Source: Lachnospiraceae bacterium
Lineage (GTDB): Bacteria; Bacillota; Clostridia; Lachnospirales; Lachnospiraceae
Reading direction: 5' to 3'
NCBI GenBank assembly: GCA_910573755.1
Contig: CAJTBO010000005.1
Coordinates: 124,001 to 188,000, forward strand
Length of the DNA: 64,000 nucleotides
Shown here piece after piece: positions 21,383-37,273 of the stretch; the first letter of the stretch is position 1, and each line of letters starts with the position of its first letter. The position numbers were made by a program, and so were the translations under genes. The notes under the pieces are model-generated. The model was not told where the DNA came from. It saw nothing but the letters and a program-made list of their open reading frames with translations, and ran no database searches.

Positions 21383-22342
21383 GTGTTTGATTTTGAAAGA
21401 CCTAATATTGAGGTTGTAGAAATCTCTGACGATAAAAAGTATGGCAAATTTGTGGTGGAACCTTTGGAAAGAGGTTATGGCATCACACTTGGTAACTCTC
21501 TCAGAAGAATTATGCTTTCTTCTTTGCCCGGCACCGCTGTAAGCCAGGTGAAATTTGATGGCGTGTTACATGAATTTACGACGATCGAAGGCGTAAAGGA
21601 AGATGTGACTGAGATCATAATGAACATCAAGAGCCTTGCGATAAAAAACAACAGCGAGAGCAATGAACCAAAGACAGCATATATTGATTATCAGGGCGAG
21701 GGCGTGATCCACGCTTCTGATATTCAGGTTGATCAGGATATCGAGATCATGAATCCGGATCAGGTGATCGCGACATTAAGCGGCGGAAAAGATTCCAAGC
21801 TGTATGTGGAACTGACGATCACAAAGGGCCGTGGGTATGTGGGCGCTGACAAGAATAAGAGCAGTGATATGTCTATCGGTGTTATTGCAGTGGATTCTAT
21901 CTATACACCTGTAGAGCGTGTCAATGTGACGGTGGAGAATACCCGTGTCGGTCAGGTGACTGACTTTGATAAGCTGACGATGGATGTATATACGGACGGA
22001 ACGCTTGCGCCGGATGAGGCGGTGAGCCTTGCGGCAAAAGTACTCAGCGAGCATTTAAGCCTCTTTATCGATCTTTCCGAGAATGCGAAGTCCGCGGAGG
22101 TTATGGTGGAAAGAGAAGATGACGAAAAAGGGAAGGTTCTTGAGATGAGCATCGATGAACTGGAACTTTCCGTCCGTTCTTATAACTGTTTGAAACGTGC
22201 AGGTATCAATACGGTGGAAGAACTTACAAATAAAACTTCCGAGGATATGATGAAGGTTCGCAATCTGGGCCGCAAGTCTCTGGAAGAAGTGCTGGCGAAG
22301 CTGAAAGAGTTAGGCCTTCAGTTAAATCCCAGCGAGGAGTGA
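21383..22342 (+). CDS. rpoA: RNA polymerase alpha subunit
   Basis: Assembly platform of RNA polymerase, 319 residues. Start taken as GTG 21383 ([20 protein letters not shown]) after AAAAGGAGGG; the upstream in-frame stretch reads through the spacer and is not family-like. N-terminal dimerisation domain with [19 protein letters not shown]-terminal domain with [22 protein letters not shown] and [12 protein letters not shown], which binds UP elements and activators. Between rpsD and rplQ as usual. Confidence 0.98.
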
Positions 22343-22349
22343 TGAAACG

Positions 22350-22465
22350 GGCGTATCCGGTAAGACCGATGAGCGCGGATATGTGTTTTCATAAATGGTA
22401 ACTATCAATATACAGGTAATATCCCGGTAAGTAAGTCCGATGCGCGTGGCCGGAATAGACCATTT
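22350..22465 (+). promoter_or_regulatory. Structured spacer before rplQ (candidate leader)
   Basis: 142 bases separate rpoA and rplQ. TATCCG 22354-22359 pairs with CGGATA 22376-22381, and AAATGGT 22393-22399 pairs with ACCATTT 22459-22465, enclosing a segment that looks like a diverged copy of the first (TATCC, GGTAAG, CCGATG and CGCG in the same order). No gene is supported here. Confidence 0.45.
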
Positions 22466-22484
22466 AATGTGAAAGGAGCCTATC

Positions 22485-23021
22485 ATGGCAAAATACAGAA
22501 AACTTGGCAGAACAAGCAGCCAGAGAAAAGCACTGCTCAGAAATCAGGTTACGGCGCTTTTATATCATGGCAAGATCGTTACAACCGAAGCGAGAGCAAA
22601 AGAAGTGCGCAAGATCGCGGAGCATGTGATCACTTTGGCTGTAAAGGAAAAAGATAATTTCGAAACCGTAAAGGTGAAAGCAAAAGTAGCACGTAAGGAC
22701 AAAGACGGCAAGAGGGTCAAAGAGGTTGTTGACGGCAAGAAAGTAACCGTATTTGACGAAGTGGAAAAAGAGATCAGAAAAGATCTGCCGTCCAGACAGC
22801 ATGCGAGACGTCAGATGATGAAAGTACTTCTTCCTGTGACGGAAATACCGACTGCGCCTGCCGGACGTAAGAAAAATACAAAAGAGATCAATATGGCAAA
22901 TAAGCTGTTTGATGAAGTTGCACCGAAATATGCGAACCGTAAGGGCGGCTACACAAGGATCGTAAAGATCGGTCCCCGTAAAGGTGATGCGGCGATGCAG
23001 GTAGTATTAGAGTTAGTATAA
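22485..23021 (+). CDS. rplQ: 50S ribosomal protein L17 (long form)
   Basis: Large-subunit protein near the tunnel exit, 178 residues, clearly longer than the 113-127 of most bacteria. The N-terminal [31 protein letters not shown] and the C-terminal [32 protein letters not shown] are canonical. The extra residues lie between, roughly 60-125, and are lysine rich. This insertion appears to be usual for the Lachnospiraceae type but its role is unknown. It ends the ribosomal cluster. Confidence 0.97.
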
Positions 23022-23034
23022 AATGATAAAATGC

Positions 23035-23064
23035 ACATACCCTGCAGTTTGCTGTGGGGTATGT
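23035..23064 (+). terminator. Hairpin ending the ribosomal cluster
   Basis: 23035-23047 pairs with 23052-23064 at all 13 positions (two G-U) around loop TTTG, directly after rplQ. The following T-run is short and broken, so termination may be partial. Confidence 0.65.
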
Positions 23065-23157
23065 GACTTTGTGGGTCTATAGGATAGAGGCTTTATGTTA
23101 TGTGCGTATGAGTGCATAAAGAAAATATTTTGAAGAATAAAGAAAAGGAGAAACGTT

Positions 23158-24384
23158 ATGAAGGGAAATGTTGTAGTTGGACAGTCCGGCGGGCCTACCG
23201 CGGTAATCAATTCTTCTGTTGCAGGTGTATATGCGGCAGCAAAGAAGCTCGGTGTGAACAAAGTATATGGCATGGTTCACGGCATCGAAGGTTTTTTGCA
23301 GGACAAGATTTGCGATCTGGATGAGTATCTTGCTGATGAGACAGGTATCGAACTGTTAAAGAGAACTCCGTCGGCTTTTCTTGGTTCCTGCCGGTTTAAA
23401 ATGCCGAAAATCGAGGGACATGAGGATGTCTATGAGAAAATTTTTGAGATCATGGAAAAGCATGATATCGAGTGCCTTTTCTACTGCGGCGGAAATGACT
23501 CTATGGATACCGTAAAGATGCTTTCCGATTATGCGGCGGCTCATGGCAAGAGCCAGAGATTTGTGGGCGTACCGAAAACGGTTGACAACGATCTTCCGAT
23601 CACCGATCACTGTCCGGGTTACGGTTCCGCTGCAAAATATATCGCAACATCCATGAAAGAGATCATCCGCGACAACTCCTCTTTCGGCGTACAGAAACCT
23701 ACGGTTTGTATCGTGGAGATCATGGGACGTAATGCAGGCTGGCTTACGGCTGCTGCCGCTTTATCCCGCGGAAGCGACTGTGAAGGCCCTGATGCGATCT
23801 ATCTGCCGGAGAGAGTATTTGACATGGATGCGTTCATGGAGAAGGTAAAAGAGCTGGCAGCGAAGAAATCTTCTGTTGTGATTGCCGTATCCGAGGGCGT
23901 TCAGATCGCGGACGGCAGATTTGTATGCGAACTTGGCAGAGAAGTTGCTGTGGATGCGTTCGGCCATAAGCAGATGTCCGGTACGGCAGTGATCCTTGCA
24001 CAGAAAGTTGCCGAGGAGACGGGTCTTAAGACAAGGGCGATCGAGTTCTCCACACTGCAGAGAGCCGCTACACACATTGCTTCCCTGACAGATATCAACG
24101 AAGCGTTTCAGGTAGGCCATGACGCTGTGGTTGCCGCGAACGAAGGCAAGACCGGCATGATGATCACACTGGACAGAAACGGCGACGATCCTTACCAGTG
24201 CGGTACAAGCGCTTACGATATCCACGCTATCGCAAATGTGGAGAGAAAAGTGCCCGACGAGTGGATCACGGCGGACGGTACGGATCTGACAGATGATTTC
24301 GAGAAGTACGGCAGACCCCTTATCATGGGTGAGCTGATGCCGCTGTATGTAAACGGCACACCGAGACATCTGGTGAGAAAGTAA
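23158..24384 (+). CDS. 6-phosphofructokinase, probably pyrophosphate-dependent
   Basis: Phosphorylates fructose 6-phosphate in glycolysis; 408 residues, longer than the roughly 320 of the ATP enzyme PfkA. Two positions set donor preference in this family. The motif after the catalytic glycines reads GGNDS (111-115), with aspartate where ATP enzymes have glycine, and the next motif reads PKTVDND (139-145), with lysine where ATP enzymes have glycine. Both favour pyrophosphate. The rest (GQSGGPTAVINSS, MGRNAGWLTAAAAL) is typical. It sits alone after the ribosomal cluster and is closed by a bidirectional terminator. Donor preference is a prediction. Confidence 0.92.
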   Translation: MKGNVVVGQSGGPTAVINSSVAGVYAAAKKLGVNKVYGMVHGIEGFLQDKICDLDEYLADETGIELLKRTPSAFLGSCRFKMPKIEGHEDVYEKIFEIMEKHDIECLFYCGGNDSMDTVKMLSDYAAAHGKSQRFVGVPKTVDNDLPITDHCPGYGSAAKYIATSMKEIIRDNSSFGVQKPTVCIVEIMGRNAGWLTAAAALSRGSDCEGPDAIYLPERVFDMDAFMEKVKELAAKKSSVVIAVSEGVQIADGRFVCELGREVAVDAFGHKQMSGTAVILAQKVAEETGLKTRAIEFSTLQRAATHIASLTDINEAFQVGHDAVVAANEGKTGMMITLDRNGDDPYQCGTSAYDIHAIANVERKVPDEWITADGTDLTDDFEKYGRPLIMGELMPLYVNGTPRHLVRK

Positions 24385-24408
24385 ATTAGGAAAAAGTAAT
24401 GAAAAAGA

Positions 24409-24435
24409 GGGCATTGAGAAGTTCAATGCCCTTTT
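24409..24435. terminator. Bidirectional terminator between pfk and the DeoR gene
   Basis: GGGCATTGA 24409-24417 pairs with 24423-24431, followed by TTTT on the + strand and CTCTTTTT on the - strand. It separates the convergent genes and should stop transcription from both sides. Confidence 0.88.
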
Positions 24436-24448
24436 ATGATGATTCGGG

Positions 24449-25225
24449 TCACTGAACAAACACATCTATATTATGCGCAGCAAAGTATGTCCGATATTCT
24501 GCAGGGATATCAGAATCTGTAATAATAATATCTGCAACGGTCAAATCACAGATCTTCATAAAGTTGGTCTTACCAAATTTGTGAGAGGCTAGTGCAAAGA
24601 CAACTGTGCCGGAGGCTTTTCTTACGGTTTCGCAGACAGTCTGCTCAAAGTTGGAATAGGTTGTAAAACCGCCGGAAACATCGGCTCCGGCTGCACCTAA
24701 AAAGGCATATTTGAAATGAAAATCCTGCATGGATTTTATAAAGGTATCACCGCTTAGAAAATGTCTGTCATACCCGCTCAGATTTCCGCCGGTTACAAGT
24801 ACGGAAGCATAAGGGTTGAGGGCAAGGATAGCAGCAACAAGAATGCTGTTTGTAACAAAGTTGGCTTTTCGGGACAGCATTGCCTGAGCTATGGCGGCGC
24901 AGGTGTCACCGCAGCCGATAAATATATTATCTCCGTCGCTCACCAGACGGGAAGCGATGGAGGCGATATACCGTTTGTCAGAACTGAAATTCAGGATTTC
25001 ATTTTTTATCATGGAACGGGGAAGAAAAATAGAATCTGTATTTTCAGAAGTCATAATAGCGCCCCCGTAGATTCGCTGGACATATCCTTCTTCCTCTAAC
25101 AGATTCAGATCTTTTCGGATGGTCACCTCGGAGACCTCAAATCTGGAACATAAATCTTCCACAAAAACTTTCCCCTGATCTAACAAAATGTCTTTTATTT
25201 GCATGATTCTTTCGGAACGATGCAT
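24449..25225 (-). CDS. DeoR/GlpR-family transcriptional regulator
   Basis: Sugar-responsive repressor, 258 residues. Start chosen at 25225 (MHRSERIMQIKDILLDQG), preceded on its strand by AGGAGGAG; a TTG seven codons upstream overlaps that site. The helix-turn-helix (VEDLCSRFEVSEVTIRKDLNLLEEEGYVQRIYGGA) is of the DeoR type, followed by the DeoR sugar-phosphate sensor fold (FIGCGDTCAAIAQAM and VTGGNLSGYDRHFLSG). It is divergent from the BtpA/sugar operon and is very likely its regulator. The effector would be a phosphorylated sugar, consistent with the FGGY kinase at the operon end. Confidence 0.94.
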   Translation of the reverse strand: MHRSERIMQIKDILLDQGKVFVEDLCSRFEVSEVTIRKDLNLLEEEGYVQRIYGGAIMTSENTDSIFLPRSMIKNEILNFSSDKRYIASIASRLVSDGDNIFIGCGDTCAAIAQAMLSRKANFVTNSILVAAILALNPYASVLVTGGNLSGYDRHFLSGDTFIKSMQDFHFKYAFLGAAGADVSGGFTTYSNFEQTVCETVRKASGTVVFALASHKFGKTNFMKICDLTVADIIITDSDIPAEYRTYFAAHNIDVFVQ

Positions 25226-25317
25226 AAATAACTCCTCCTGATTCAATAAATGAATACATATCTATTGTATATTCTCCTATATTTCCGTGATTAAGTCAAT
25301 GGTAAAAATGACAAAAA

Positions 25318-25410
25318 CGAAATAATAAACTTTCGGTTATATGGTAAAACGAAATAAATATTGAAACAAATAGAAACATAATATATAATAAAAACATCAA
25401 ATCGAAATAA
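25318..25410 (+). promoter_or_regulatory. Promoter of the BtpA/sugar operon with three CGAAATAA motifs
   Basis: TTGAAA 25361-25366, 17 bases, TATAAT 25384-25389 form a near-consensus promoter. Three identical CGAAATAA octamers lie at 25318-25325, 25350-25357 and 25403-25410, spaced 32 and 53 bases, close to three and five helical turns. One is just upstream of the -35 and one just past the start point. DeoR-family operators often contain repeated TTTCG/CGAAA cores, so these are the likely binding sites of the divergent regulator. Confidence 0.75.
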
Positions 25411-25429
25411 AACAGAAAGGGAAAAGGAA

Positions 25430-26239
25430 ATGAGCTGGTTAAAGGAGATTATAGGGACGGAGAAAGCGGTTATTGCAATGTGCCATTTGCAGCCTCTTCC
25501 GGGTGATCCGGGCTTTTCAAAAGAAAAGGGGATGGATTGGGTTGTGGACAGAGCCTATAAAGATTTAACGGCATTGCAGGACGGCGGTGTCGATGCAGTA
25601 ATGTTTTCAAATGAGTTCAGCCTCCCGTATTTAACGGAGGTCAAAAAGGAAACGGTGGCTGCAATGGCGTACGTTGTGGGTACACTGAAAAAGGAAGTGA
25701 GGATTCCGTTTGGTGTAAATGCATTGTGGGATGGCTCAGCGTCGATAGATATTGCAGTGGCGACAGGGGCAAAATTTGTAAGAGAGATTTTTACAGGCGT
25801 ATATGCGAGTGACTTTGGTCTCTGGAATACAAATTACGGAGAGGTGGCAAGACATCGCTGCAGGGTAGGCGGAGAAGATGTAAAACTTCTTTTCAATATT
25901 GTTCCGGAAGCGGCAAAATATCTGGGAGAGAGGGATATCGTCCAGATTGCAAAATCGACGGTGTTCAACTGTAAGGCGGACGCGTTGTGTGTATCGGGAT
26001 TGACAGCGGGGGTCGAGACAGATCAACAGATTCTGAAAGAAGTAAAGGATGCTGTAAAAGATACGGTTGTTCTCGCGAATACCGGATGCAGGATCGACAA
26101 TATTGAAAAGCAGCTGGCAGTTGCGGATGGCGCCGTTGTGGGGACTACGTTCAAATATGACGGTGTATTTGAAAATGGCGTAGATAAGGAAAGGGTTCTC
26201 AGATTTATGGACAAGGTGCATAGCTGTCGGAAGTCATGA
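25430..26239 (+). CDS. BtpA-family protein, copy 1
   Basis: TIM-barrel protein of the BtpA/SgcQ family, 269 residues. Members were named for a photosystem I assembly factor in cyanobacteria, but in anaerobes they occur in sugar operons and their reaction is not established. Visible family marks are AVIAMCHLQPLPGDPGF, ALQDGGVDAVMFSNEFSLPY, FVREIFTGVYASDFGLW, VFNCKADALCVSGLTAG, LANTGC and VVGTTFKYDGVFEN. It is the first gene after the regulated promoter. A paralogue with about the same length lies at the other end of the transporter genes, suggesting two related but distinct activities. Confidence 0.9.
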   Translation: MSWLKEIIGTEKAVIAMCHLQPLPGDPGFSKEKGMDWVVDRAYKDLTALQDGGVDAVMFSNEFSLPYLTEVKKETVAAMAYVVGTLKKEVRIPFGVNALWDGSASIDIAVATGAKFVREIFTGVYASDFGLWNTNYGEVARHRCRVGGEDVKLLFNIVPEAAKYLGERDIVQIAKSTVFNCKADALCVSGLTAGVETDQQILKEVKDAVKDTVVLANTGCRIDNIEKQLAVADGAVVGTTFKYDGVFENGVDKERVLRFMDKVHSCRKS

Positions 26240-26287
26240 TTGACGGCATGAACATAGACATTTATGAAAAGAAAGGAAGGTATGGTT

Positions 26288-27364
26288 ATGAAAAAGAAAT
26301 GGATCACGTGGCTCGTTCTCGGATGTATGACAGTTTCTTTGTGGGGATGCGGTTCAAAACAGGAGGAGCAGCCGGCGGCAGAGTCAGCTCCGGCGGCGGA
26401 GGAAGCAGCAGAAGAGACGACAGAAGCGGCTTCTGCAGAAAGCGGTGATTATAAGATCGCTACAGTTGTAAAAGAAAGTTCGGATCCGTGGTTTATCCGT
26501 ATGGAGGAAGGTGTAAACCGTTTTGCGGATGATACCGGTGTGAACGCTTTTCAAAAGGGACCGAGCAAGACGGATGCGGCGCAGCAGGTGCAGGTTATTG
26601 AGGAACTTGTTGCACAGGATATCGATGCAATCTGTGTGGTGCCCATCGATCCGGCAGCCTGCGAGAGTGTACTGAAGAAAGCAATGGACAAGGGGATTGT
26701 TGTGATCACACACGAAGCGACAACGCAGCAGAATTGCGACTTTAATATTGAGGCATTTGACAATGCGGGATATGGCGCATATATGATGGATGAACTGGCA
26801 AAGGCGATGGGAGAGGAAGGACAATATGTATGTATGGTTTCCTATCTGACCAATGCGGCACATAAGGAGTGGTCAGATGCGGCAATCGCCCGCCAGAAAG
26901 AAATGTATCCGAATATGGAACTGATTCCGGAAGAAAAAATAGAAACGGAAGACAGCATGGAAGTGGCATACGAGAGAGTAAAGGAAATATTGAAAAAGTA
27001 TCCTGATATCAAAGGCTTTCTCGGAACAGCCAGCAATGATCCTCCGGGAGCGGGAAAAGCAATCGATGAGATGGGACTGACAGGAAAAGTATTTGCGGCG
27101 GGAACATCCGTGACATCCGTGGCGGCGCCCTATCTGGAGAGTGGTTCCGTGGCAACTGCTACCTGCTGGGATCCCGCAGATGCAGGTTATGCGATGAATG
27201 TACTTGCTAAAATGATTCTTGATGGCAAAAGAGATGAGATTCAGACAGGTTTGGACCTTGGTGTACCGGGCTTTGAAAGCATTTCGGTGACAGACGGGAA
27301 GTATATTAACGGGGAAGGCTGGATCGCGATCACCAAAGATAATATGTCAGACTATAATTTCTAA
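26288..27364 (+). CDS. Sugar-binding lipoprotein, ribose/autoinducer type
   Basis: Extracellular binding protein for the adjacent ABC importer, 358 residues. Start taken as ATG 26288 with GGAAGG seven bases before; the ATG at 26282 is too close to that site. The signal peptide ends in a lipobox (VSLWGC), followed by a glutamate- and alanine-rich linker of about 35 residues. The mature type 1 binding fold shows VKESSDPWFIRMEEGVNRFA, QDIDAICVVPIDPAACESV and KGFLGTASNDPPGAGKAI. Overall it resembles RbsB, RhaS or LsrB proteins. A hairpin with a T-run lies directly downstream, a common way to make more binding protein than membrane parts. Confidence 0.92.
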   Translation: MKKKWITWLVLGCMTVSLWGCGSKQEEQPAAESAPAAEEAAEETTEAASAESGDYKIATVVKESSDPWFIRMEEGVNRFADDTGVNAFQKGPSKTDAAQQVQVIEELVAQDIDAICVVPIDPAACESVLKKAMDKGIVVITHEATTQQNCDFNIEAFDNAGYGAYMMDELAKAMGEEGQYVCMVSYLTNAAHKEWSDAAIARQKEMYPNMELIPEEKIETEDSMEVAYERVKEILKKYPDIKGFLGTASNDPPGAGKAIDEMGLTGKVFAAGTSVTSVAAPYLESGSVATATCWDPADAGYAMNVLAKMILDGKRDEIQTGLDLGVPGFESISVTDGKYINGEGWIAITKDNMSDYNF

Positions 27365-27395
27365 AAGCAGAATATTCGCTGAGTAATAAGGGACG

Positions 27396-27438
27396 AGGAG
27401 GTTCAGAGATGCGAATGCATTTTCTGTAACCTCCTTTT
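27396..27438 (+). terminator. Attenuator hairpin between binding protein and ATPase genes
   Basis: 27396-27407 pairs with 27423-27435 in 12 pairs with one bulged T, followed by TTTT. Read-through would supply the downstream ABC genes. A second stem, 27452-27458 with 27467-27473, lies before the next ribosome site. Confidence 0.7.
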
Positions 27439-27498
27439 AGCTGAAGCATTCATGCCCGGATAAGCACGGGCATAGGGATGATGGGAGAGGATTAGCAA

Positions 27499-29016
27499 AT
27501 GTCAGATGTTATGTTACAGATCAGCCAGATAAGCAAAGCTTTTGGGGGAGTACAAGCGCTTGATAAAGTGGATTTGGAGATCCGCCGCGGAGAGATTCAT
27601 TGTCTGGCAGGGGGCAATGGTTCCGGCAAGTCAACATTGATTAAGATTATTTCGGGATATTATAAGGCTGACAGTGGTACGATCAGCATAGAAGGACATG
27701 ATCACAGTAAATTAAATCCGATCGAAGCGATCATGTCCGGAATACAGGTCATTTATCAGGATTTTTCTGTTTTTCCGAATTTGACGGTGGCTGAAAATAT
27801 TGCGATGTATGATGCCGTGGCGTCGAAGCAGAAACTGCAAAACTGGAAAAGGACAGCGGAAACAGCAAAAAATACCATGGATAAGCTGGGGATCACGATA
27901 CCGCCGGATGCCCTTGTGGAAGAACTTCCTGTGGCGGACAGACAGCTTGTGGCAATCTGCAGGGCGATGGTTCACGATGCGAAACTGATCATTATGGACG
28001 AGCCGACAACGGCACTCACAAGGAGGGAAGTAGATAAGCTGTTCGGAATTATCAGGATACTGCAGCAAAAGGGAATTGCTATTTTATTTGTAAGCCACAA
28101 ACTGGATGAGGTGTTTGAGATTGCCGACAATTTTACGATTCTCAGAAACGGGAAAAAGGTCATTAGTGATGCGGCATCTAATGTGGACAATGATAAATTT
28201 ATATACTATATGACCGGAAGGGCAATTAAAAAAGAAAATTTTACGCCTAAAGAGATCAGAAAAGACAAACCGCTGTTTGAGGTCAGGGATCTGTGCCTTG
28301 AGAAGGGTTTTGAACATATCAGTTTTAAGGTATATGCGGGGGAAGTGCTGGGTATAGTCGGGCTTTTGGGTTCAGGGAGAACAGAACTTGCGGAATCGCT
28401 GTTCGGACTGCTGCCATCGACAAGCGGTGATATCTTAATTGACGGAGAAGCGGTACGTATCCGCACACCGCAGGATGCAATAAGACATAAGATTGGATAT
28501 GTTCCCGAGGACAGGCTGACAGAGGGTCTGTTTTTAGGACAGCCGATTGAAAATAATATGATGCTTGCAAATATCGATGCACTTACCACAAAAAGAAAAA
28601 TGATCGACTGGAAAACCCTGCATGAGCATGCCGGGGCATGGAGGGATGAACTGTCCATAAAAATGGGTGCCATGAATGCATTGATCACAACTCTTTCCGG
28701 CGGAAACCAGCAGAAAGTAGTGTTGGCAAAATGGCTTGAGATACAACCGAAAGTGTTGATCCTGAACGGTCCCACGGTAGGAGTTGATATCGGGGCAAAG
28801 TATGATCTGCACGCGTATCTGCACAGGCTTGCAGAGGCGATGGAAACGGCGATCATTGTTATTTCGGATGATATCCCGGAATTGATTGAAAATTGTAACA
28901 GAATCATTGTTATGAAACAGGGAAGGCTGACCGGGGAATACAGCAATAAAGAAGTAACCGAGCAGGAACTGATGAGCGCGGTCACTGCACAGAAGGAGGA
29001 AGCAGATGAAAACTAA
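27499..29016 (+). CDS. Sugar ABC transporter ATP-binding protein (RbsA-like)
   Basis: Energises the importer; 505 residues with two fused ATPase domains. The first has Walker A GGNGSGKST, Walker B LIIMDEPTTAL and the switch histidine in FVSHKLDEVF. The second has LLGSGRTELAESLFGL in place of a normal Walker A, signature LSGGNQQKVVLAKWL and Walker B VLILNGPTVGVDIGAK; this degenerate second site is normal for RbsA-type proteins. Note that the second Walker B reads NGPTVGV rather than DEPTxGV. It overlaps the first permease gene by 11 bases. Confidence 0.95.
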   Translation: MSDVMLQISQISKAFGGVQALDKVDLEIRRGEIHCLAGGNGSGKSTLIKIISGYYKADSGTISIEGHDHSKLNPIEAIMSGIQVIYQDFSVFPNLTVAENIAMYDAVASKQKLQNWKRTAETAKNTMDKLGITIPPDALVEELPVADRQLVAICRAMVHDAKLIIMDEPTTALTRREVDKLFGIIRILQQKGIAILFVSHKLDEVFEIADNFTILRNGKKVISDAASNVDNDKFIYYMTGRAIKKENFTPKEIRKDKPLFEVRDLCLEKGFEHISFKVYAGEVLGIVGLLGSGRTELAESLFGLLPSTSGDILIDGEAVRIRTPQDAIRHKIGYVPEDRLTEGLFLGQPIENNMMLANIDALTTKRKMIDWKTLHEHAGAWRDELSIKMGAMNALITTLSGGNQQKVVLAKWLEIQPKVLILNGPTVGVDIGAKYDLHAYLHRLAEAMETAIIVISDDIPELIENCNRIIVMKQGRLTGEYSNKEVTEQELMSAVTAQKEEADEN

Positions 29017-30019
29017 AAAGCTTTTAAAGAGAAATGAATTTTATGTAGCCGTGACCATTTTTCTGTTGAGCCTTGTCATTCAGCTTCGAAGCGGCCAGTT
29101 CTTTACGGCAAACAATTTTGTGGATCTGGCGAGAGCCATGATCATTCCGGGCATGTTGACGATGGGAGTGATGATGGAGATCATATCGGGCGGTATTGAT
29201 GTGTCTTTTCCGGCTATTTCGATGTTAAGCATGTACGCGACTCTGGAACTTTTGCTAAAAACAGAATATGATGGACCGGTTGCACTGGCTTTTGCGGTTG
29301 CAACGATGATCGGTCTGTGCCTTGGGCTTATCAACGGGGCACTGATCTGTTGGCTGAAATTGCCCGCTTTCATTATTACATTGGGAACTTCCAGTATTTA
29401 TCTGGGATTTATGCAGGCTGTGTTAAAGAGCCACACATCGTCACTTCTGCCGGGACCGGTCAGCAGAATGGTAAAATCATTCTTGCTGACGGTGACAAAT
29501 CAGGAGCTTGGGATATCAAGTTCCCTTCCGAGTGTATTTGTTTTTTTGATCATTATTGTGGCATTTACGGCTTTTCTTTTAAAATATACCATGCTGGGGC
29601 GCGGTATATACGCGCTGGGCGGTGATCCGGTGGCGGCGGAGAGAGCAGGTTTCCATGTCAATGGCATCAGATTGTTTGTATATGGTTTTATGGGTGCTCT
29701 GGCAGGTTTTGTCGGAATCACGAGAACTATCCTGGTGGGAAGCTGCCAGCCGAACAGTCTGATCGGCTATGAAATGACCTGTATTGCGGCGGTTGTGCTG
29801 GGCGGCACAAGGATCAGCGGCGGGCATGGAACCGTGACGGGGTCTCTGCTGGGGGCACTGCTTCTTACGATGGTGAGCAACAGCCTGATCCTGATGGGGA
29901 TTCCCACTTACTGGAGCAAATTTGTGACGGGCATTCTGATCATTTTGGGGACAGGTGTATCGGCATATCAGGCATTAAAGAGACAGAAACAATTGGCAGC
30001 CAATGTATTGGAGGACTAA
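29006..30019 (+). CDS. Sugar ABC transporter permease 1 (RbsC-like)
   Basis: Membrane subunit, 337 residues and about nine helices. GGIDVSFPAISMLSMYATLEL, LGLINGALICWLKLPAFIITLGT and AAVVLGGTRISGGHGTVTGSLLGALLL are conserved permease segments; the GG-GT loop contacts the ATPase. The start lies within the ATPase gene, so translation is coupled. Two different permeases indicate a heterodimeric channel, as in LsrC/LsrD or YtfT/YjfF, rather than the homodimer of ribose systems. Confidence 0.94.
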   Translation: MKTKKLLKRNEFYVAVTIFLLSLVIQLRSGQFFTANNFVDLARAMIIPGMLTMGVMMEIISGGIDVSFPAISMLSMYATLELLLKTEYDGPVALAFAVATMIGLCLGLINGALICWLKLPAFIITLGTSSIYLGFMQAVLKSHTSSLLPGPVSRMVKSFLLTVTNQELGISSSLPSVFVFLIIIVAFTAFLLKYTMLGRGIYALGGDPVAAERAGFHVNGIRLFVYGFMGALAGFVGITRTILVGSCQPNSLIGYEMTCIAAVVLGGTRISGGHGTVTGSLLGALLLTMVSNSLILMGIPTYWSKFVTGILIILGTGVSAYQALKRQKQLAANVLED

Positions 30020-30030
30020 GGAGGGTAGTG

Positions 30031-31047
30031 ATGAAAGATAAGATAGTTCATTTCTTGAAAGCGGATTCCAATATTTCGCGTCTCAGTATACTGTTGTTCG
30101 TTTCAGTCGTGGCGCTTGCGATTATGGAACCGGATATTTTCCTGACGCAGGATTATATGGTATCCATGCTGTATCTTTTTCCGGAATTCGGCATTCTTGC
30201 GCTGGGAATGGCGTTTTGTATGATCAGCGGAGGAATTGACCTGTGCGTTGTCGCAACGGCAAATTTTTCCGGCATTCTGGCATGTATTTTTATGAAAACG
30301 GTGCTGGGGGATTCGGAGACGCCAGGGGCGGGGATTGCAGTACTTTGTATTGCAGTGCTGCTCGCTTTATTGATCGGCATGATATGCGGTGCTTTGAACG
30401 GCGTACTGATAGCAAAACTGGGGATACCGCCTATTCTGGCAACACTGGGTGGGAGCGATTTGGTCATGGGGCTGGCGATTGCCCTGACAAAGGGATCTTC
30501 TGTAACGGATATTCCGCCGGCGTTAAATGCGACGGGAACACATATTTTCGGTAACCTGTTTCCGGTAACGCTGCTTGTGTTTATATTGTGCGCGTGCTTT
30601 GCGGCATATCAGCTAAATAAAACGACTTTCGGCTATAAATTATATATGATGGGTTCAAATGCGACAGCGTCGAGATACTCCGGTGTGGATAATGAGAAGA
30701 CCATTATGAAGACATATATTTTCAGCGGGATGCTGGCGGCGGTTTCAGGCCTTTTGATGTGTGCGAGGTTCAATACCGCCAGGGCGGACTTCGGATCATC
30801 CTATACGATGCAGGCTATTTTGATCTGTGTACTCGGTGGCGTGAATCCAAACGGGGGATCAGGGAAAGTGAGAGGCGTTGTGTTTGCGGTGCTGATTCTG
30901 CAGGTACTCTCATCGGGACTGAATATGTTTCCGTCACTCAGCAACTTTTACAAAGACCTGATCTGGGGGGCGGCCCTGATCCTGATCATTGCGTGTAACC
31001 ATGTTGGAAACAGACTGGCGGAGAAAAGACTGTTAGGCGGTAATTAA
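30031..31047 (+). CDS. Sugar ABC transporter permease 2 (RbsC-like)
   Basis: Second membrane subunit, 338 residues. Start chosen at ATG 30031 with AAGGAGGG six bases before; the preceding GTG is less likely. GGIDLCVVATANFSGILACIF, GALNGVLIAKLGIPPILATLGG and CVLGGVNPNGGSGKVRGVVFAV match the family. With the upstream permease it would form the transport path. It is followed after 18 bases by the second BtpA gene. Confidence 0.94.
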   Translation: MKDKIVHFLKADSNISRLSILLFVSVVALAIMEPDIFLTQDYMVSMLYLFPEFGILALGMAFCMISGGIDLCVVATANFSGILACIFMKTVLGDSETPGAGIAVLCIAVLLALLIGMICGALNGVLIAKLGIPPILATLGGSDLVMGLAIALTKGSSVTDIPPALNATGTHIFGNLFPVTLLVFILCACFAAYQLNKTTFGYKLYMMGSNATASRYSGVDNEKTIMKTYIFSGMLAAVSGLLMCARFNTARADFGSSYTMQAILICVLGGVNPNGGSGKVRGVVFAVLILQVLSSGLNMFPSLSNFYKDLIWGAALILIIACNHVGNRLAEKRLLGGN

Positions 31048-31065
31048 GAGAGGAGATAATATAAA

Positions 31066-31878
31066 ATGGCTAAAGGAATTAAAGAAATTAAAAAACCGAT
31101 CGTTGCATTGCTGCATCTGGCAGCATTTCCGAGTGATCCCAATTATGTGAGAGGGACAACCATGGGAGAGATTGTGAAACAGGCGGCAAAGGATCTGGAG
31201 GCCCTGCAGAAGGGCGGTGTGGATGCCGTGCTGTTTTCAAATGAATTCGGCATACCCTATAGAAATGTGGCGGATCATATGACTACGGCGGCTATCGCAA
31301 GGATCGTAGGGGAATTGAAACATGATATTTCCGTACCTTATGGCGTGGATCTTTTGCAGGATCCGGTCAATATCATCGATCTGGCGGTCGCGGTGGAGGC
31401 ATCCTTTGTGAGAGAGCAGTTTACCGGCGCTTTTGTCGGGGAAGGGGGGATATTCCGCACTGATATTGCGGAGACGTTGAGACGGCGCAGGCAATTGGAC
31501 GCAATGGATCTGGAAATGTATTACTTCCTGAATAATGAATCGGATGTCTATTTAAATGACCGGGACTATGCGACAATCGTGCGGTCGATGATCTTCAAAT
31601 GTAAGCCGGACGGTATCTGTGTGGCGGGAATCCATGCCGGGGCTGATCCGGATTCGGCGTGGATAAAGGGAATCAAGGAGGCCGCAAAGAGTACCAGAGT
31701 ATTCTGCAATACAGGATGTAAGAAAGAAAATATCCGTGAGAAGCTGACAGTGGCGGACGGTGCCTTTGTGGGAACCACCTTCAAAGTGGACGGAAAATTT
31801 GAGAACTTTATTGATTATCACAGAGTAAAAGAGTTTATGGATGAAGTAAAAGATTTCCGTAAAGGGTTTACGGAGTAA
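31066..31878 (+). CDS. BtpA-family protein, copy 2
   Basis: Second TIM-barrel BtpA/SgcQ protein of the operon, 270 residues. It shares the family marks with copy 1 (KPIVALLHLAAFPSDPNYV, ALQKGGVDAVLFSNEFGIPY, SFVREQFTGAFVGEGGIF, IFKCKPDGICVAGIHAGADPD, CNTGCKKENI, VGTTFKVDGKFEN) but is clearly diverged, so it is an old duplicate rather than a recent one. It lies between the permease and kinase genes, hinting at a step near phosphorylation. Its reaction is not known. It may be an aldolase-, epimerase- or nucleosidase-like step. Confidence 0.9.
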   Translation: MAKGIKEIKKPIVALLHLAAFPSDPNYVRGTTMGEIVKQAAKDLEALQKGGVDAVLFSNEFGIPYRNVADHMTTAAIARIVGELKHDISVPYGVDLLQDPVNIIDLAVAVEASFVREQFTGAFVGEGGIFRTDIAETLRRRRQLDAMDLEMYYFLNNESDVYLNDRDYATIVRSMIFKCKPDGICVAGIHAGADPDSAWIKGIKEAAKSTRVFCNTGCKKENIREKLTVADGAFVGTTFKVDGKFENFIDYHRVKEFMDEVKDFRKGFTE

Positions 31879-31890
31879 GGGGAGTATAAC

Positions 31891-33390
31891 ATGCGCTATT
31901 ACATGGGAGTTGATGTCGGGAGTTCTTCAAGTAAAGGAGTGCTGGTGGACCAGGAGGGAAAGATTCATGCGGAGATAAGCTTTCCGCATGATATGGAGAA
32001 TCCAAAACCTGGCTATTACGAGCACGACGCCGAAGAGGTATGGTGGGGAGATTTCTGCAGGATCAGCAGAAATCTGCTTATCATGGGTAAAGTGGCTCCG
32101 GAGGAGATAAAAAGTATCGGAGTCAGCGCGCTTGGAGCGGACTGCGTCCCTGTGGATGAAAATTGTGTGCCGCTTCGCAGGGCGATCCTCTACGGGATCG
32201 ATGCCAGAGCGGAGGAAGAGCTCAGAGAGATAGAGGACAGCATCGGACCGGAAAAAATCAGAGAGATGCGGAGTAATCCGCTGTGTTCCGAAGATGTTTT
32301 CGCAAAATCGCTCTGGATCAAGAATAAAGAGCCGGAGATTTACAAAAAAACATATAAATTCTGCACGGCGTCCACTTATCTGACGGCGAAACTGACAGAT
32401 GTTTTTGTGGTGGATAATTATCTGGCGCAGCTCTGTTACTTTCCGGCTTACCATAAAGACGGAACACTGGCAAAAGAGATGGTTTCCCGTTTTATTGAAC
32501 CGTCCATGATGGCAGATACGGCGTCCTGTACGGATGTGGTGGGAAAGGTGACAAAGCGGGCGGCAGAACAGACCGGGCTTATGGAGGGAACACCTGTGAT
32601 CACCGGCACGGATGATGCAGGCGCCGAAGCCGTCAGTGCAGGTATTGTGGGTCAGGGTGATACGATGATTATGTTGGGATCTTCCATGTATATGATCAGC
32701 CTGTCGGATCGGCCTATCGCTGACTCCAGATTGTGGAACAGTGCCTATCTGGTTCCGGGGGTTCATTCTATTCAGGGTGCCACTAATAATATGGGAACCG
32801 TGACAAAATGGATGAAAGAGAAATTGTTTCCGGAACTGGAAGATAAGGAGAGAAACGGCGGTGAAAACGCTTATGCGGCGATGATGAAACTGGGGGAGAG
32901 CGTGCCCGCAGGTGCTGATGGGCTGGTAGCGCTGCCCTATTTTTCGGGAGAGCGGACACCGATCAATGATCCCTGTGCGAGCGGTGCCCTGTTCGGACTG
33001 CGCCTGCATCATGACAAAAGGCATATATACCGGGCTTTTCTGGAGGGAATCGCTTACAGCATAGCTCAGAATATTCTGGTATTGGAAGAAAATCAGGTGG
33101 AGATCAGGCGTTTGACGGCGACCGGGGGCGGGACGAAGAACAGACTGCTTTTACAGATACTGGCAGACGTTACAGGGAGGGAGATTTTTGTTCCGAAGGT
33201 GACAATTGGGGCTTCCTATGGGGATGCCGTTCTCGCGATGATAGGCTGCGGGGAGATTCCTTCTTTTGAACAGGCAGGAAAATTATTCCGGTATGCTTCA
33301 TCTTACAAACCCGATAAGGAGAGACATCTTTTTTACAGAGAAGGGCTGCAGCGATTTACGGAGTTTTATAAAAGTACAAAAATCATGTAA
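31891..33390 (+). CDS. FGGY-family carbohydrate kinase
   Basis: ATP-dependent sugar kinase, 499 residues. The N-terminal phosphate loop is GVDVGSSSSKGVLVD, the central segment GTDDAGAEAVSAGIV holds the catalytic aspartate region, and the C-terminal TATGGGTKNRLLLQILADV and the GASYGDAVLAM site bind adenosine. It is nearest to xylulokinase-type members by length and motifs. It closes the operon whose regulator senses a sugar phosphate. Possible substrates are a pentulose, a hexitol or a less usual ketose; the sequence alone does not decide. Confidence 0.92.
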   Translation: MRYYMGVDVGSSSSKGVLVDQEGKIHAEISFPHDMENPKPGYYEHDAEEVWWGDFCRISRNLLIMGKVAPEEIKSIGVSALGADCVPVDENCVPLRRAILYGIDARAEEELREIEDSIGPEKIREMRSNPLCSEDVFAKSLWIKNKEPEIYKKTYKFCTASTYLTAKLTDVFVVDNYLAQLCYFPAYHKDGTLAKEMVSRFIEPSMMADTASCTDVVGKVTKRAAEQTGLMEGTPVITGTDDAGAEAVSAGIVGQGDTMIMLGSSMYMISLSDRPIADSRLWNSAYLVPGVHSIQGATNNMGTVTKWMKEKLFPELEDKERNGGENAYAAMMKLGESVPAGADGLVALPYFSGERTPINDPCASGALFGLRLHHDKRHIYRAFLEGIAYSIAQNILVLEENQVEIRRLTATGGGTKNRLLLQILADVTGREIFVPKVTIGASYGDAVLAMIGCGEIPSFEQAGKLFRYASSYKPDKERHLFYREGLQRFTEFYKSTKIM

Positions 33391-33520
33391 GAGAAATATG
33401 GGGGAGAGGTCAGGAAAGAAAATATTCCATAGGTCCTATCTGCCCTATTATCTGCTTACCTGCCTGATAGAAGAGACGGGAGAAAAATATTTTTGTTTCA
33501 AAATAATCCAAGTAGATTTT

Positions 33521-33556
33521 ACAAAAAATCCAACTGGGAAAGCAGTATTTTATGAT
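33521..33556 (+). promoter_or_regulatory. 15-base motif and possible -10 before the histidine kinase gene
   Basis: ACAAAAAATCCAACT at 33521-33535 recurs exactly at 37148-37162 before the binding-protein gene of the same locus. TATGAT at 33551-33556 could be a -10. The shared motif is a candidate site for the response regulator. Confidence 0.4.
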
Positions 33557-33593
33557 ATGATAAGGAAAATATCGCAAAGGAATCAAAGAGGGC

Positions 33594-35396
33594 ATGAAAC
33601 TGCGTTTTCGTATACTGCTTAGCTGTATCGTCTGTGTGCTTCTGGCGTTGCTGATACAGACTTTTTTATTTAAAGAGACATCTTCTGAGATGATCTATAA
33701 TCTTTCCCGGGAGGAGAGTGAAAACTCTCTGAAAAATATGCAGGAGGAAATCTATCATTTTACAGGCAATATGGAGAAAAAGCTGATAAAGATCTACAGT
33801 GAACAGGACTTTATCAGCGCCCTGAAGGATGACAGTTACGGGGTGGATCGTCTGCGGGAGGATTTTTACCGGAGGGCCTATGAGGTCGGTGCGGGAAATT
33901 TTGAGACCAGCGACAAGGTGATGGCACTGTATCTGTATACGATGGATCATGAGATCATCAGCACCTACCGGAAGGCGACGACGCCGAAGCACAATTATCC
34001 GGTGGATATCTATGAGGATATGGAAGCCTATAATGCGCGGAAAGTGCAGGAGTATGTGGAATCGGATGAACAGGCGCTGCTGATCTCAGGATATTATAAT
34101 GCTTATCGGGAGAAAGATATTATCCGTTTTGTGTTGAAACTGTATAATAACAGTAACCGGAACAAAAAGATCGGCTATGTGGTGTGCGATGTGGACAGCA
34201 AGGTATTTATGGATATTCTGGAAAAATACTGTACGGAGAATACGATGTATATCTGGCTGCAGTCGGATTCCGACAGGCCGATCGTTTCCCAGGGAAGCCT
34301 TACGGAAGTGGATGACGGGATCTATCAGGTGATCTCCGGACAGATCGAGGCGGGGGATCAGGCGTCCATAGCCAATCAGTCCAAGCAGGAGTTGTTTCAG
34401 GCGGAGCAGAGAAAGTATAACCTGACGGCGTATTCCCTGATGCCGGAGAGCATTCTGCAGCAAAACCAGCAGGCGCTGACAGTCAACCTGATCACGATAG
34501 CCGTGGTGATGGTGATCGTATCCGCCATGCTGATCTTCATTGTATCCAGAAGCATTACAAAACCTCTGGATATGCTGATCGGGACGATACAGCGGATCGC
34601 GGGCGGAGAGATGGAACTGCGGGCGAATGTGACAAAGTCGGATGAGATCGGGGAACTGGGCAGGAATTTCAATGTGATGCTGGATCAGGTGGAGGAACTG
34701 AAGGAGAAGGAAAATCAGGCGAACCTTCAGCTTGCGCAGGCACAGTACAAAGCGCTGCAGGCGCAGATCAATCCGCATTTTCTGTATAATACGCTGGATA
34801 CGATGAGCAGTATCGCGGAGGTGAAGGACTGCCCGGAAGTCAGTATGCTGAGCCAGTCTTTGTCCAATATTTTCCGCTACAGCCTGAATATGAAAGATCC
34901 CTTTTCCACGGTGGCAAAGGAGATCGTGCATTTAAAAAACTACTGTTATGTAATGGATGTGCGGATGCAGGATCATGTGCAGTATTATTATGATATCGAT
35001 CCGGAATCTTTAAAGGCGCGGGTTCCGAGGATATCGATACAGCCGCTTGTGGAAAATGCACTGAACCACGGGCTTCGCAATAAGCGGGGAGAAAAACAGG
35101 TGCGGATCGGGGCAAAGGTGAAGGAGGAACTTCTGGAGATCTGTGTGGCGGACAACGGCGTGGGCATGGATGCGGAGAAGATGAATAAGAGCCTGAAACA
35201 GAGCAATCTGGATTATGTGGAGCGGGGAAATTCCATCGGCATTCACAATATCAACGCCCGCCTGAAGATTCTGTACGGGGAAGAGTACGGACTGCATATA
35301 GAGAGCACGATCGGAGAAGGGACGCGGGTGTGGATGGTGATACCGAAGATAGAGGGAGAGCCGGAGAAGGATGCGGGAAAGCCGGAAGCGGGGTAA
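33594..35396 (+). CDS. Sensor histidine kinase, YesM/LytS type
   Basis: Membrane sensor for carbohydrates, 600 residues. One helix near residues 4-24 and a second near 297-320 bracket an extracellular sensing region. A HAMP domain follows (SRSITKPLDMLIGTIQRIAGGEMEL), then a coiled segment, the His-kinase domain with H395 in QINPHFLYNTLDTMSS, and an ATPase domain (VENALNHGLRNK, DNGVGMDAEKM, GIHNINARL). The response regulator begins 121 bases downstream, and then a CUT1 sugar importer, so it probably senses an oligosaccharide such as an alpha-galactoside. The start codon is the ATG that follows CAAAGAGGGC. Confidence 0.94.
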   Translation: MKLRFRILLSCIVCVLLALLIQTFLFKETSSEMIYNLSREESENSLKNMQEEIYHFTGNMEKKLIKIYSEQDFISALKDDSYGVDRLREDFYRRAYEVGAGNFETSDKVMALYLYTMDHEIISTYRKATTPKHNYPVDIYEDMEAYNARKVQEYVESDEQALLISGYYNAYREKDIIRFVLKLYNNSNRNKKIGYVVCDVDSKVFMDILEKYCTENTMYIWLQSDSDRPIVSQGSLTEVDDGIYQVISGQIEAGDQASIANQSKQELFQAEQRKYNLTAYSLMPESILQQNQQALTVNLITIAVVMVIVSAMLIFIVSRSITKPLDMLIGTIQRIAGGEMELRANVTKSDEIGELGRNFNVMLDQVEELKEKENQANLQLAQAQYKALQAQINPHFLYNTLDTMSSIAEVKDCPEVSMLSQSLSNIFRYSLNMKDPFSTVAKEIVHLKNYCYVMDVRMQDHVQYYYDIDPESLKARVPRISIQPLVENALNHGLRNKRGEKQVRIGAKVKEELLEICVADNGVGMDAEKMNKSLKQSNLDYVERGNSIGIHNINARLKILYGEEYGLHIESTIGEGTRVWMVIPKIEGEPEKDAGKPEAG

Positions 35397-35517
35397 CAGT
35401 GAAGCCTAAGGCTGAACTGTTGCAAATCAGGTGCGGGGCGGAGATGCCGAAAGGAGTAAAAAGCCGGGGGAGGATTAGAAGTGCCGGCGGCGGATGCGGA
35501 TGACTGAGGAGGGGAAT

Positions 35518-37107
35518 ATGAACGAGAAAAAATATAAGGTGCTGATTGCTGACGACGAATACTGGACAAGGGAAAAATTGAAACGAATGATCCCCTGGGA
35601 AAAGTATTCTCTGGAACTGCTTGTGCCTGCCGTGGACGGGGAGGACGTATTGCGGAGGATGGAGGAGGAAGTGCCGGATATCCTGATCACGGATATTGAT
35701 ATGCCTTTTTTGTCGGGGACCGAACTTCTGGCAATCGTGCAGGAAAAGTATCCGAAGGTGATCTCCTTTGTCGTCAGCGGCTACAATGATTTTGCCTATG
35801 TGAAGGATTCCTTTCTTGCCGGTTCCATCAACTATCTGATGAAGCCGGTGACAAAGATGGATCTGGTGAATGCGCTGGTCAGGGCGCTGGAGCTGATCGG
35901 AGAGCGGGAGCATGAGCAGAGACGGATGCAGGAGGCGGCTTCCCTGATTCAGGATACGGAATTCAGCGAGATGATCGCCCACAGACAGCTTCCGCTGGCA
36001 TCGAGCGTGTCTGTCAATGCGGGGATGGATCTTGCGGGGATCAGTCTGATACTTCTTAAAATACATAACCTGCAGGACATCGTCAGAAAAAGCAGGCAAG
36101 GCAGGAACGGGTTTTCGTTTCAGATGAAGGAGAAGATACGGGAACTTCTCTGCAATGAAAAAGCGATCGTATTTAATTATATTTATCACTCCAATGAATT
36201 TCTGATCATCACGGAAACAGGCGGAAAGGAGCTGGAGAGGGCGGCGGAGCGATTAATGACAGGCATGTCGGAATTTTTGCAGACAAGGCTGACGATCTGC
36301 ATCAGCGGACATTCCTATTCTATGGAGAGCATTCACACGGCTTATATGGAGACGATAGGGCTTTTGATGGAGCGGACATTCAGCAAGAAGGATGAAATAC
36401 TGTTTGGCGGGGAGAACAGGGAGCGGCCAGATAAGATGGTGCTTCATTTTCAGGAGGAGAAGGAGAAGCAGGTTCGTTTCCAGCTTACAGCCTGCGACGG
36501 GGAGGGTGTCATTCGGACCATTCTGGAAGAGACAGATCTGGCGGACTGCGAGAGACAGGGCTGGAGTTATCTGGAGGTGAGGCAGACCGTGCGGCAGATC
36601 ATGAACGTATTGCAGGACTATGCGGTGCGGGAGTGCAGTACGGAGAAAGCCATCGATATCGAGAATGTGACGGAATCACTGGACAAGATGGTGGAAAGTC
36701 TGGATATCAGGAATGTGTGCGATATGATGCGGGAAGCGGTCAGCGTGCTGGTGCCGGAAAAGAGGGAAGCCGCCACAGATTCCATGAAAGCCATCGTACA
36801 GGAGGCTGCGGCATGGATCGATAAGCATTTTTACGAGGAGTTGACGCTGACCACACTGGCGGAACAGTTCCATGTGGAGCATTCCTATTTTTCAAGGGTC
36901 TTCCGGCAGGAGATAGGAATAAGTCCGGTTATCTATATTACAAACAGGAGGATGGAGAAGGCGAAGCAGTATATTCAGGAAGGGAAGAAGAATCTGACGG
37001 AGGTTGCCTTTATGGTGGGGTATGATGATTATACGTATTTCAGCAGGGTGTTCCGGAAAAATACGGGGGAGAGCCCGCGGGAGTACAGAAGCCGGTTTCC
37101 GGGGTAG
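35518..37107 (+). CDS. AraC-type response regulator, YesN family
   Basis: DNA-binding partner of the upstream kinase, 529 residues. Start at ATG 35518 with GAGGAGGGG before it; an in-frame ATG at 35494 is upstream of that site. The receiver domain opens YKVLIADDEYWTREKLKRMI, with phospho-acceptor D59 in ITDIDMP and the switch lysine in LMKPVTK. A long central region of unknown fold leads to a C-terminal pair of AraC helix-turn-helices (LTTLAEQFHVEHSYFSRVFRQEIG and VAFMVGYDDYTYFSRVFRKNTGESPREYR). It most likely activates the binding-protein operon next door. Confidence 0.95.
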   Translation: MNEKKYKVLIADDEYWTREKLKRMIPWEKYSLELLVPAVDGEDVLRRMEEEVPDILITDIDMPFLSGTELLAIVQEKYPKVISFVVSGYNDFAYVKDSFLAGSINYLMKPVTKMDLVNALVRALELIGEREHEQRRMQEAASLIQDTEFSEMIAHRQLPLASSVSVNAGMDLAGISLILLKIHNLQDIVRKSRQGRNGFSFQMKEKIRELLCNEKAIVFNYIYHSNEFLIITETGGKELERAAERLMTGMSEFLQTRLTICISGHSYSMESIHTAYMETIGLLMERTFSKKDEILFGGENRERPDKMVLHFQEEKEKQVRFQLTACDGEGVIRTILEETDLADCERQGWSYLEVRQTVRQIMNVLQDYAVRECSTEKAIDIENVTESLDKMVESLDIRNVCDMMREAVSVLVPEKREAATDSMKAIVQEAAAWIDKHFYEELTLTTLAEQFHVEHSYFSRVFRQEIGISPVIYITNRRMEKAKQYIQEGKKNLTEVAFMVGYDDYTYFSRVFRKNTGESPREYRSRFPG

Positions 37108-37147
37108 CATTATTGGCAGGAGATCGTATGCCGGGGGTAAAGTTATG

Positions 37148-37211: not shown

Positions 37212-37273
37212 AAGACCATCAGAAAGCGGCGGTTTCAAACGGACTGCCGCAAATAAGAAACGGAGGAAGGAAA

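Follow-up and report, generated by a model that had tools for sequence, protein, structure and literature searches.

Comparison with described systems

Among the matches listed in the open-access literature searched, none assigns a reaction to the BtpA/SgcQ family, with subscription papers lying mostly outside this scope. In Escherichia coli, the family is represented by SgcQ, encoded in the sgcXBCQAER operon, the function of which is still called unestablished in the accessible part of the 2026 E. coli atlas; according to the same part, sgcC and sgcX deletion mutants grew normally on standard substrates and on 190 Biolog carbon sources. Here, we analyze an operon with two BtpA genes, BtpA1 and BtpA2, in a 64,000-nucleotide stretch of Lachnospiraceae bacterium DNA (contig CAJTBO010000005.1; the whole stretch is called the window, and positions are given within it). 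It is a sugar operon of a known type, with a CUT2 importer, arranged around BtpA, and we propose with moderate confidence that it serves the salvage of a ketopentose (a ribulose-like sugar) through import, phosphorylation, and subsequent action of BtpA on the sugar phosphate. The new elements are the kinship of BtpA1 with SgcQ, an AauA-like pocket in the binding protein, the replacement of the kinase in a related operon, the matches of BtpA to barrel folds, and the kinase-linked clade of BtpA2.

The sgc operon resembles the window operon in its DeoR-type regulator, in phosphorylating uptake, and in SgcQ itself, which, as annotated in the E. coli record, is 68% identical to BtpA1 and 44% to BtpA2. 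It differs in having a phosphotransferase system (PTS) in place of an ATP-binding cassette (ABC) importer and a kinase, and in carrying M42 (SgcX) and RPE-like (SgcE) genes; the galactitol-type PTS, SgcX, and SgcE, which occur with relatives of SgcQ, are all absent from the window operon.

The Aau system of enterohemorrhagic E. coli (EHEC) and the Rbl system of Citrobacter rodentium share with the window operon an ABC importer with a closely similar binding-protein pocket, and Rbl also has an FGGY kinase (available text of PMC12307932). In contrast to the window operon, BtpA is not mentioned in that text (term count 0), and Rbl includes a KpsF-like isomerase, while the window kinase falls below the ribulokinase models. 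The autoinducer-2 (AI-2) system Lsr likewise combines a binding protein, an ATPase, two permeases, and an FGGY kinase, but the LsrB and LsrK models are not reached by the window proteins, the pocket differs from that of two LsrB proteins, and no LsrF or LsrG genes are present among the open reading frames (ORFs) of the window operon. Finally, the AraB/AraD steps of L-arabinose utilization correspond to our proposal in that a pentulose kinase is followed by an enzyme acting on pentulose-5-phosphate, and a ribulokinase does occupy the place of the kinase in one related operon. Neither AraA nor AraD genes were found among the window operon ORFs, and by analogy with this step BtpA may be an unrelated protein in the place of AraD.

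Binding protein, kinase, and BtpA proteins

The sugar-binding protein (26264..27364, plus strand), an RbsA-type double ATPase (27499..29016, plus strand, ABC_tran in two stretches), and two permeases (29006..30019 and 30028..31047, both plus strand) make up the importer, which is assigned to the CUT2 sugar ABC type by the Peripla_BP_4 binding protein, the double-domain ATPase, and the BPD_transp_2 permeases. No NCBIfam model gives its substrate; for the binding protein, RhaS gives 131.8 of 342.25 bits, LsrB 97.9 of 384, and YtfQ 23 of 510, all below their cut-offs. Among solved structures, 5bra (named for ribose), 9i1m, and 3d02 come closest to the binding protein. The second of these, 9i1m, is AauA of EHEC, solved with D-ribulose, which it binds with a dissociation constant of about 2 μM through contacts of Lys37, Trp43, Glu118, His167, Glu196, and Ser223 (PMC12307932, available text). 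Residues K70, W76, E151, H200, D230, and S257 of the window protein align with these six in the same order, so that five are identical and the sixth, Glu196, is replaced by Asp. From these residues, we infer a pocket of the ketopentose type. None of the contacts described in the available text of PMC12307932 is to C1, which would allow a substituent at C1 of the window sugar.

The first four of these residues (K-W-E-H) recur in 17 of the 22 other CUT2 binding proteins in BtpA loci, a set in which the L184 protein duplicates that of L008 and from which the 209-aa fragment of L160 was excluded by length. All six places are the same as in the window protein in 7 of the 22; in the remaining K-W-E-H proteins, the last place is Gly in seven and the last two places vary in three. 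The five proteins without K-W-E-H include two Citrobacter LsrB proteins that exceed the LsrB cut-off, as well as those of L143 and L157, located 1.8 and 3.1 kb from BtpA, respectively; thus, the motif is no rule for every importer next to BtpA. The protein 5bra and the alphaproteobacterial homologues that adjoin ribokinase and deoC have Gln and Met where the window protein has His and Ser. The preliminary description had taken a resemblance to Lsr- and Ytf-type systems as a guide to the substrate; this is not borne out, as the pocket is AauA-like and the two Citrobacter LsrB proteins carry other residues, and the AI-2 reading was dropped on the same grounds together with the LsrB score.

The kinase gene (31891..33390, plus strand, FGGY_N and FGGY_C domains, motif LYGIDAR), for which we propose a ketopentose as the substrate, reaches 166 of the 428 bits required by the ribulokinase model and 173 of the 528 bits required by the AI-2 kinase model. 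A syntenic relative is the operon of locus L008, in which one run contains genes for a DeoR regulator, a BtpA1 (72% identical to that of the window), a ribulokinase, a binding protein (79%), an ATPase, and two permeases. Its kinase is of the AraB type (602.8 bits against the cut-off of 428) and is the one ribulokinase-model match in the L008 genome (G056, 98% complete), where a model search for AraA gave no match. A pentulose kinase at this place, in a genome with no match to arabinose isomerase, argues for a pentulose as the sugar taken up, and the gene set leaves BtpA as the sole other enzyme candidate in that operon. The best AraD-model score in G056 is 112.9 bits, compared with 369.5 and 373.4 bits in the window genome and G911; this contrast rests on the scores and not on the cut-off, which no genome reached. 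G056 has a single class II aldolase, which most resembles fuculose-phosphate aldolase while scoring below the cut-off of that model; its gene adjoins a PNP/UDP-type phosphorylase gene.

A second replacement of the kinase, by Dak1/Dak2 in L153, was considered and rejected, as Dak1, Dak2, M42, and FGGY share one run there; L153 and L189 both carry Dak1, Dak2, M42, and FGGY in a BtpA operon, with two kinase types together. Among the matches listed, FGGY kinases with LYGxDxR occur mostly with CUT2 importers and the BtpA2 clade, and those with QQN-DAR are found chiefly where SDR and HAD genes occur. About 3.6 kb to the left of the window, there is a ribulokinase-like gene that scores above the cut-off (G000:C5:118765-120405, 563 bits).

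Both BtpA1 (25430..26239, plus strand) and BtpA2 (31066..31878, plus strand) belong to the BtpA/SgcQ family, with 312.6 and 229.5 bits for PF03437 (cut-off 30) and 336.5 and 235.6 bits for TIGR00259 (cut-off 153.4), respectively. The model for BtpA of photosystem I biogenesis, NF045918, gives 161.8 and 120.8 bits against a cut-off of 400, and the two proteins therefore lie outside that group. A comparison of the BtpA profile with solved structures gave four best matches (E < 0.01), all of which are triosephosphate isomerase (TIM) barrels and most of which belong to phosphate-binding families: CutC (4e-4), two geranylgeranylglyceryl-phosphate synthases (7e-4 and 9e-4), and a TrpA-type chain (8e-3). 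The TIM-barrel matches fall mainly in the C-terminal half of BtpA. Among 34 BtpA members, Pfam gave weak matches to TrpA (6), HisA/HisF (3), and PcrB (2), as well as single chance-like matches, and BtpA1 used as a simple sequence query against the PDB returned only one match, at chance level (E 0.72). The profile matches suggest that BtpA binds a phosphorylated ligand, which would place its action after that of the kinase.

The polar residues His19, Asp55, Asn61, and Lys242 are invariant in the 34 diverse BtpA members, and Lys12, Glu62, Arg118, Arg141, and Glu160 are invariant as well in a narrower set of 54 BtpAs, from which the more distant ones were left out. Both window proteins retain the conserved polar residues; BtpA2 deviates at four highly conserved positions, in each case mildly (I15V, G25S, M79I, and Y125F).

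BtpA1 and BtpA2 are 45% identical across 265 aa. A quickly built tree with 77 BtpA rows places BtpA1 among the SgcQ-like rows, in groups with moderate support, none of the smaller sets around it being starred, and BtpA2 in a different clade of 17 rows with an SH-like approximate likelihood ratio test (SH-aLRT) value of 98, at the end of a long branch (1.15 against a median of 0.5). This separate placement makes it unlikely that BtpA2 is a recent copy of BtpA1. In the BtpA2 clade, an FGGY gene lies within 6.5 kb in 16 of the 17 rows (the window counted by hand), L176 being the row without one. Nine positions split the two BtpA groups, with the group residue present in BtpA1 at eight and in BtpA2 at seven of them; they include C18/L and H142/R, beside the conserved His19 and Arg141, so that a difference in specificity between the two proteins is possible.

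These differences, together with the intact polar residues in both proteins, could be taken to mean that BtpA1 and BtpA2 perform two successive steps on one imported sugar, as the preliminary description had put forward. We find this doubtful, though it keeps a real chance. Operons syntenic with that of the window carry a single BtpA: one match per genome was obtained in the complete searches of L008, L149, and L153, and a single BtpA is also seen in each of the stretches fetched for L007 and L061. Moreover, the other two-BtpA loci (L065/L171, L180, and L151) combine other clades, with no recurring fixed pair among the fetched loci, and the BtpA2 clade is typically found near kinases. The view of the operon as a sugar pathway with BtpA proteins is supported, whereas the likeness to Lsr and Ytf as a guide to the substrate is not.

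Other pairs and outlying relatives were also recorded. Two BtpA genes occur at L151:6810-8443 (a direct tandem), L065:8189-10810, and L180:5115-7985, each pair being different. The window genome has a third, shorter BtpA gene (L003, G000:C1:186353-187039), the product of which is 22% identical to BtpA1, in a mannose-type PTS-like locus with a GntR-type regulator, as read from the translations. A search of viral contigs with BtpA2 gave a sole match, a distant relative in L122 (an IMG/VR contig classed as viral). Beyond these, BtpA genes are present in enterobacteria, gut clostridia, rhizobia, Thermus, one cyanobacterium, and one archaeon.

Gene neighborhoods of BtpA

The preliminary description had called for a check of BtpA genes for FGGY kinase partners, and the outcome is positive. 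Of 80 SgcQ-like loci, which represent the closest 80 of 274 BtpA1 relatives and are mutually related, 69 have an FGGY kinase or galactitol-type PTS no further than 6 kb from BtpA. The family sample, which was drawn with BtpA2 as the query and is thus biased to its kin, gave 20 of 29 loci (31 of 32 regions, that of G552 being omitted; L142 and L177 were then dropped, as no BtpA ORF was chosen). In a phylum sample, drawn evenly and with all 22 regions used, several of them ending at contig ends, the count is 7 of 22; in addition, L149 and L153 have an FGGY gene further along the same run, and three loci have PfkB. The chance expectation of an FGGY gene per 12.8-kb stretch is about 4%, as calculated from one genome, that of the window (15 FGGY genes above the cut-off in 4.88 Mb). 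Genes in the fetched loci are mechanical ORF choices.

Within 6.5 kb in the 80 loci, FGGY only was found in 46, PTS only in 22, both in 2, and neither in 10, a near-exclusion in the raw counts. The kinases near BtpA are of several kinds: FGGY, AraB-type (L008), PfkB (near distant BtpAs), and Dak1/Dak2 beside FGGY (L153). What all these loci have in common is BtpA, the gene for which they were selected. The enterobacterial loci among the 80 usually have the order M42, EIIB, EIIC, BtpA, EIIA, RPE-like, and DeoR, which is that of sgc. Near other BtpAs there are RPE-like, HxlA-like, ribose-bisphosphate-isomerase-like, and L-ribulose-5-phosphate-3-epimerase-like genes, all below the model cut-offs except SgcE; these neighbors point to the same pool of pentulose phosphates.

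Many BtpA loci also contain peptidase- or amidase-like genes, for which a plain pentulose route offers no explanation. On this basis, the substrate could be a nitrogen-bearing sugar conjugate, such as an amino-acid or amide derivative of ribulose, that would be trimmed by the peptidase or amidase, with BtpA splitting or rearranging the phosphorylated sugar much as HisA and TrpF do, two Amadori-type isomerases of the same fold class. M42 peptidase genes lie near BtpA in 33 of the 80 loci, and in L078 an M29 aminopeptidase gene separates BtpA from FGGY. Other loci contain genes of the creatininase, amidohydrolase, cyclase, acetamidase, GGT, isochorismatase, and PIG-L types, a list that comes from author-selected scans and hence carries no count. 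Genes of the SIS (GlmS-like) and PfkB types adjoin distant BtpAs in L165, L167, and L169, the HisA-type matches noted above, although weak, fit such a reaction, and the E. coli sgc module is induced by a subset of nitrogen-containing carbon sources (2026 E. coli atlas, accessible part). Against this, peptidase and amidase genes are absent from the window operon, and M42 and SDR genes are nearly mutually exclusive (M42 only in 32 of the 80 loci, SDR only in 29, both in 1, and neither in 18), which means that several pathways may exist; a tree-based test of this exclusion had just one independent pair on supported branches. We therefore judge a nitrogen-bearing substrate to be clearly improbable for the window operon.

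Two of these neighborhoods deserve separate description. In L078, the M29 gene (L078:10829-11899) stands at the place of M42 in other loci and is possibly a non-homologous replacement for it. In L123 and L124, on rhizobial plasmids, genes for BtpA, a PIG-L deacetylase, a Gfo/Idh/MocA oxidoreductase, a sugar isomerase, and an alpha/beta hydrolase adjoin a CUT1 importer.

Still less probable is a nucleoside-derived or ribose-like sugar, with BtpA acting on a ribose-derived phosphate. It is favored by L139, where a BtpA that is 63% identical to BtpA1 is accompanied by a Bmp-type importer, a nucleoside hydrolase (by Pfam, with RihC and RihA below the cut-off), M42, and FGGY, by L185, where a distant BtpA has a Bmp-type binding protein, a uridine-phosphorylase-like gene, and PfkB as neighbors, and by the ribokinase and deoC genes adjoining the alphaproteobacterial binding-protein homologues. 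However, the ribose-type binding proteins have the Gln and Met mentioned above in place of His and Ser, and the window operon lacks a nucleoside gene. To our knowledge, FGGY kinases rarely use aldoses. As an observation in its own right, L139:7185-17000 and L188 show in one run DeoR, BtpA, a creatininase-like gene, the Bmp-type importer, the nucleoside hydrolase, M42 in two ORFs, and FGGY, tying BtpA to nucleoside salvage there.

That BtpA proteins are chaperones or regulators of sugar systems and not catalysts is very unlikely: the only roles that we found named for them are indeed non-enzymatic (cyanobacterial photosystem I biogenesis in NF045918 and “PTS chaperone-like features” of SgcQ in the accessible part of the 2026 E. 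coli atlas), but the polar residues invariant in the 34 diverse members and the further ones in the set of 54, the resemblance of the C-terminal half to phosphate-binding barrels, and the retention of BtpA while kinase and transporter vary all speak for catalysis.

Operon layout and proposed pathway

The gene content given by the preliminary description (DeoR divergent from BtpA1, followed by the binding protein, ATPase, two permeases, BtpA2, and FGGY kinase) agrees with coordinates, reading frames, and Pfam: all eight frames are open, and all products exceed the Pfam cut-offs (DeoRC/HTH_DeoR, PF03437 twice, Peripla_BP_4, ABC_tran, BPD_transp_2 twice, and FGGY_N/FGGY_C). The genes from BtpA1 to the kinase lie on a single strand with gaps of 24, 134, −11, 8, 18, and 12 bp, and this tight spacing on a common strand fits one transcript. 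The DeoR gene (24449..25246, minus strand) was assigned a TTG start mechanically, with an alternative internal ATG seven codons in; the top NCBIfam match of its product is AgaR, at 167.8 bits, below the cut-off of 260.

In the divergent promoter region (25247..25429), a TTGAAA-17-TATAAT site (11/12) lies at 25361-25389, between the DeoR and BtpA1 genes. As the scanned region contains 27 promoter-like sites against 19.4 (standard deviation 4.3) in shuffled sequences, this site is distinguished solely by its score and position. The 12-bp repeat AAAACGAAATAA occurs at 25314 and 25346, with a step of 32 bp, and the pair is possibly a DeoR-type operator. Rfam at gathering thresholds gave no match in window positions 22000-40000.

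Downstream, at 33594-42757, there is a distinct sugar locus, in which genes for a YesM-like histidine kinase and an AraC-type regulator precede those for a CUT1 importer and a melibiase-family protein. We weighed whether the histidine kinase and response regulator (33594-37107) belong to the operon and decided against it, because the CUT1/melibiase cluster comes next and they begin 203 bp beyond the kinase.

Under the proposed ketopentose salvage, the binding protein and the RbsA-type importer would bring a ketopentose into the cell, the substrate class being deduced from the pocket residues, and the FGGY kinase would phosphorylate it. BtpA1, probably a phosphate-binding TIM barrel, would then modify the pentulose phosphate so that it can be fed into the pentose phosphate pathway, the simplest such step being epimerization or isomerization. 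BtpA2 probably joined the operon together with the kinase and may either act as a further enzyme on a related isomer or be partly redundant. By analogy with its family, the window DeoR would probably repress the operon until a sugar phosphate accumulates. Since D-ribulose-5-phosphate needs no further enzyme, as in Rbl, the favored sugar is a pentulose whose phosphate requires epimerization or isomerization.

Several observations weigh against ketopentose salvage. If the sugar were D-ribulose, the kinase alone would be enough, as in C. rodentium Rbl, leaving no need for BtpA. The window kinase scores below the cut-off of the ribulokinase model and is only 26% identical to the L008 ribulokinase, Gly occupies the place of AauA Ser223 in 7 of the 17 K-W-E-H proteins, and none of the four genomes that were searched attained the AraD cut-off of 389.1 bits, which cannot alone separate AraD from its kin. 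The resemblance to known folds is weak (best E 4e-4), with non-barrels also appearing at E 0.01 to 10, and searches of the literature and of solved structures found no BtpA reaction, ligand, or structure. An FGGY gene or PTS accompanies BtpA within 6 kb in only 7 of the 22 phylum-sample loci, the tree-based test of FGGY/PTS exclusion had just two independent pairs on supported branches, and the peptidase- and amidase-like neighbors stay outside a plain pentulose route.

A broader version of the proposal is that BtpA/SgcQ is an unrecognized pentulose-5-phosphate epimerase or isomerase, an unrelated stand-in for AraD, fed by interchangeable FGGY, AraB-type, or PTS phosphorylation, and that it gives sgc its chemistry. 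We put it forward tentatively and regard it as rather unlikely to hold in this general form.

Taken together, the operon offers a concrete substrate class, ketopentoses, for probing an old family that includes the orphan SgcQ; with this class, the kinase-first order, and the natural replacement of the kinase, the question is reduced to a few standard enzyme assays. Should BtpA turn out to be an epimerase, it would become possible to read many sugar operons that currently carry annotations of unknown function and to define a niche of gut bacteria based on rare sugars.

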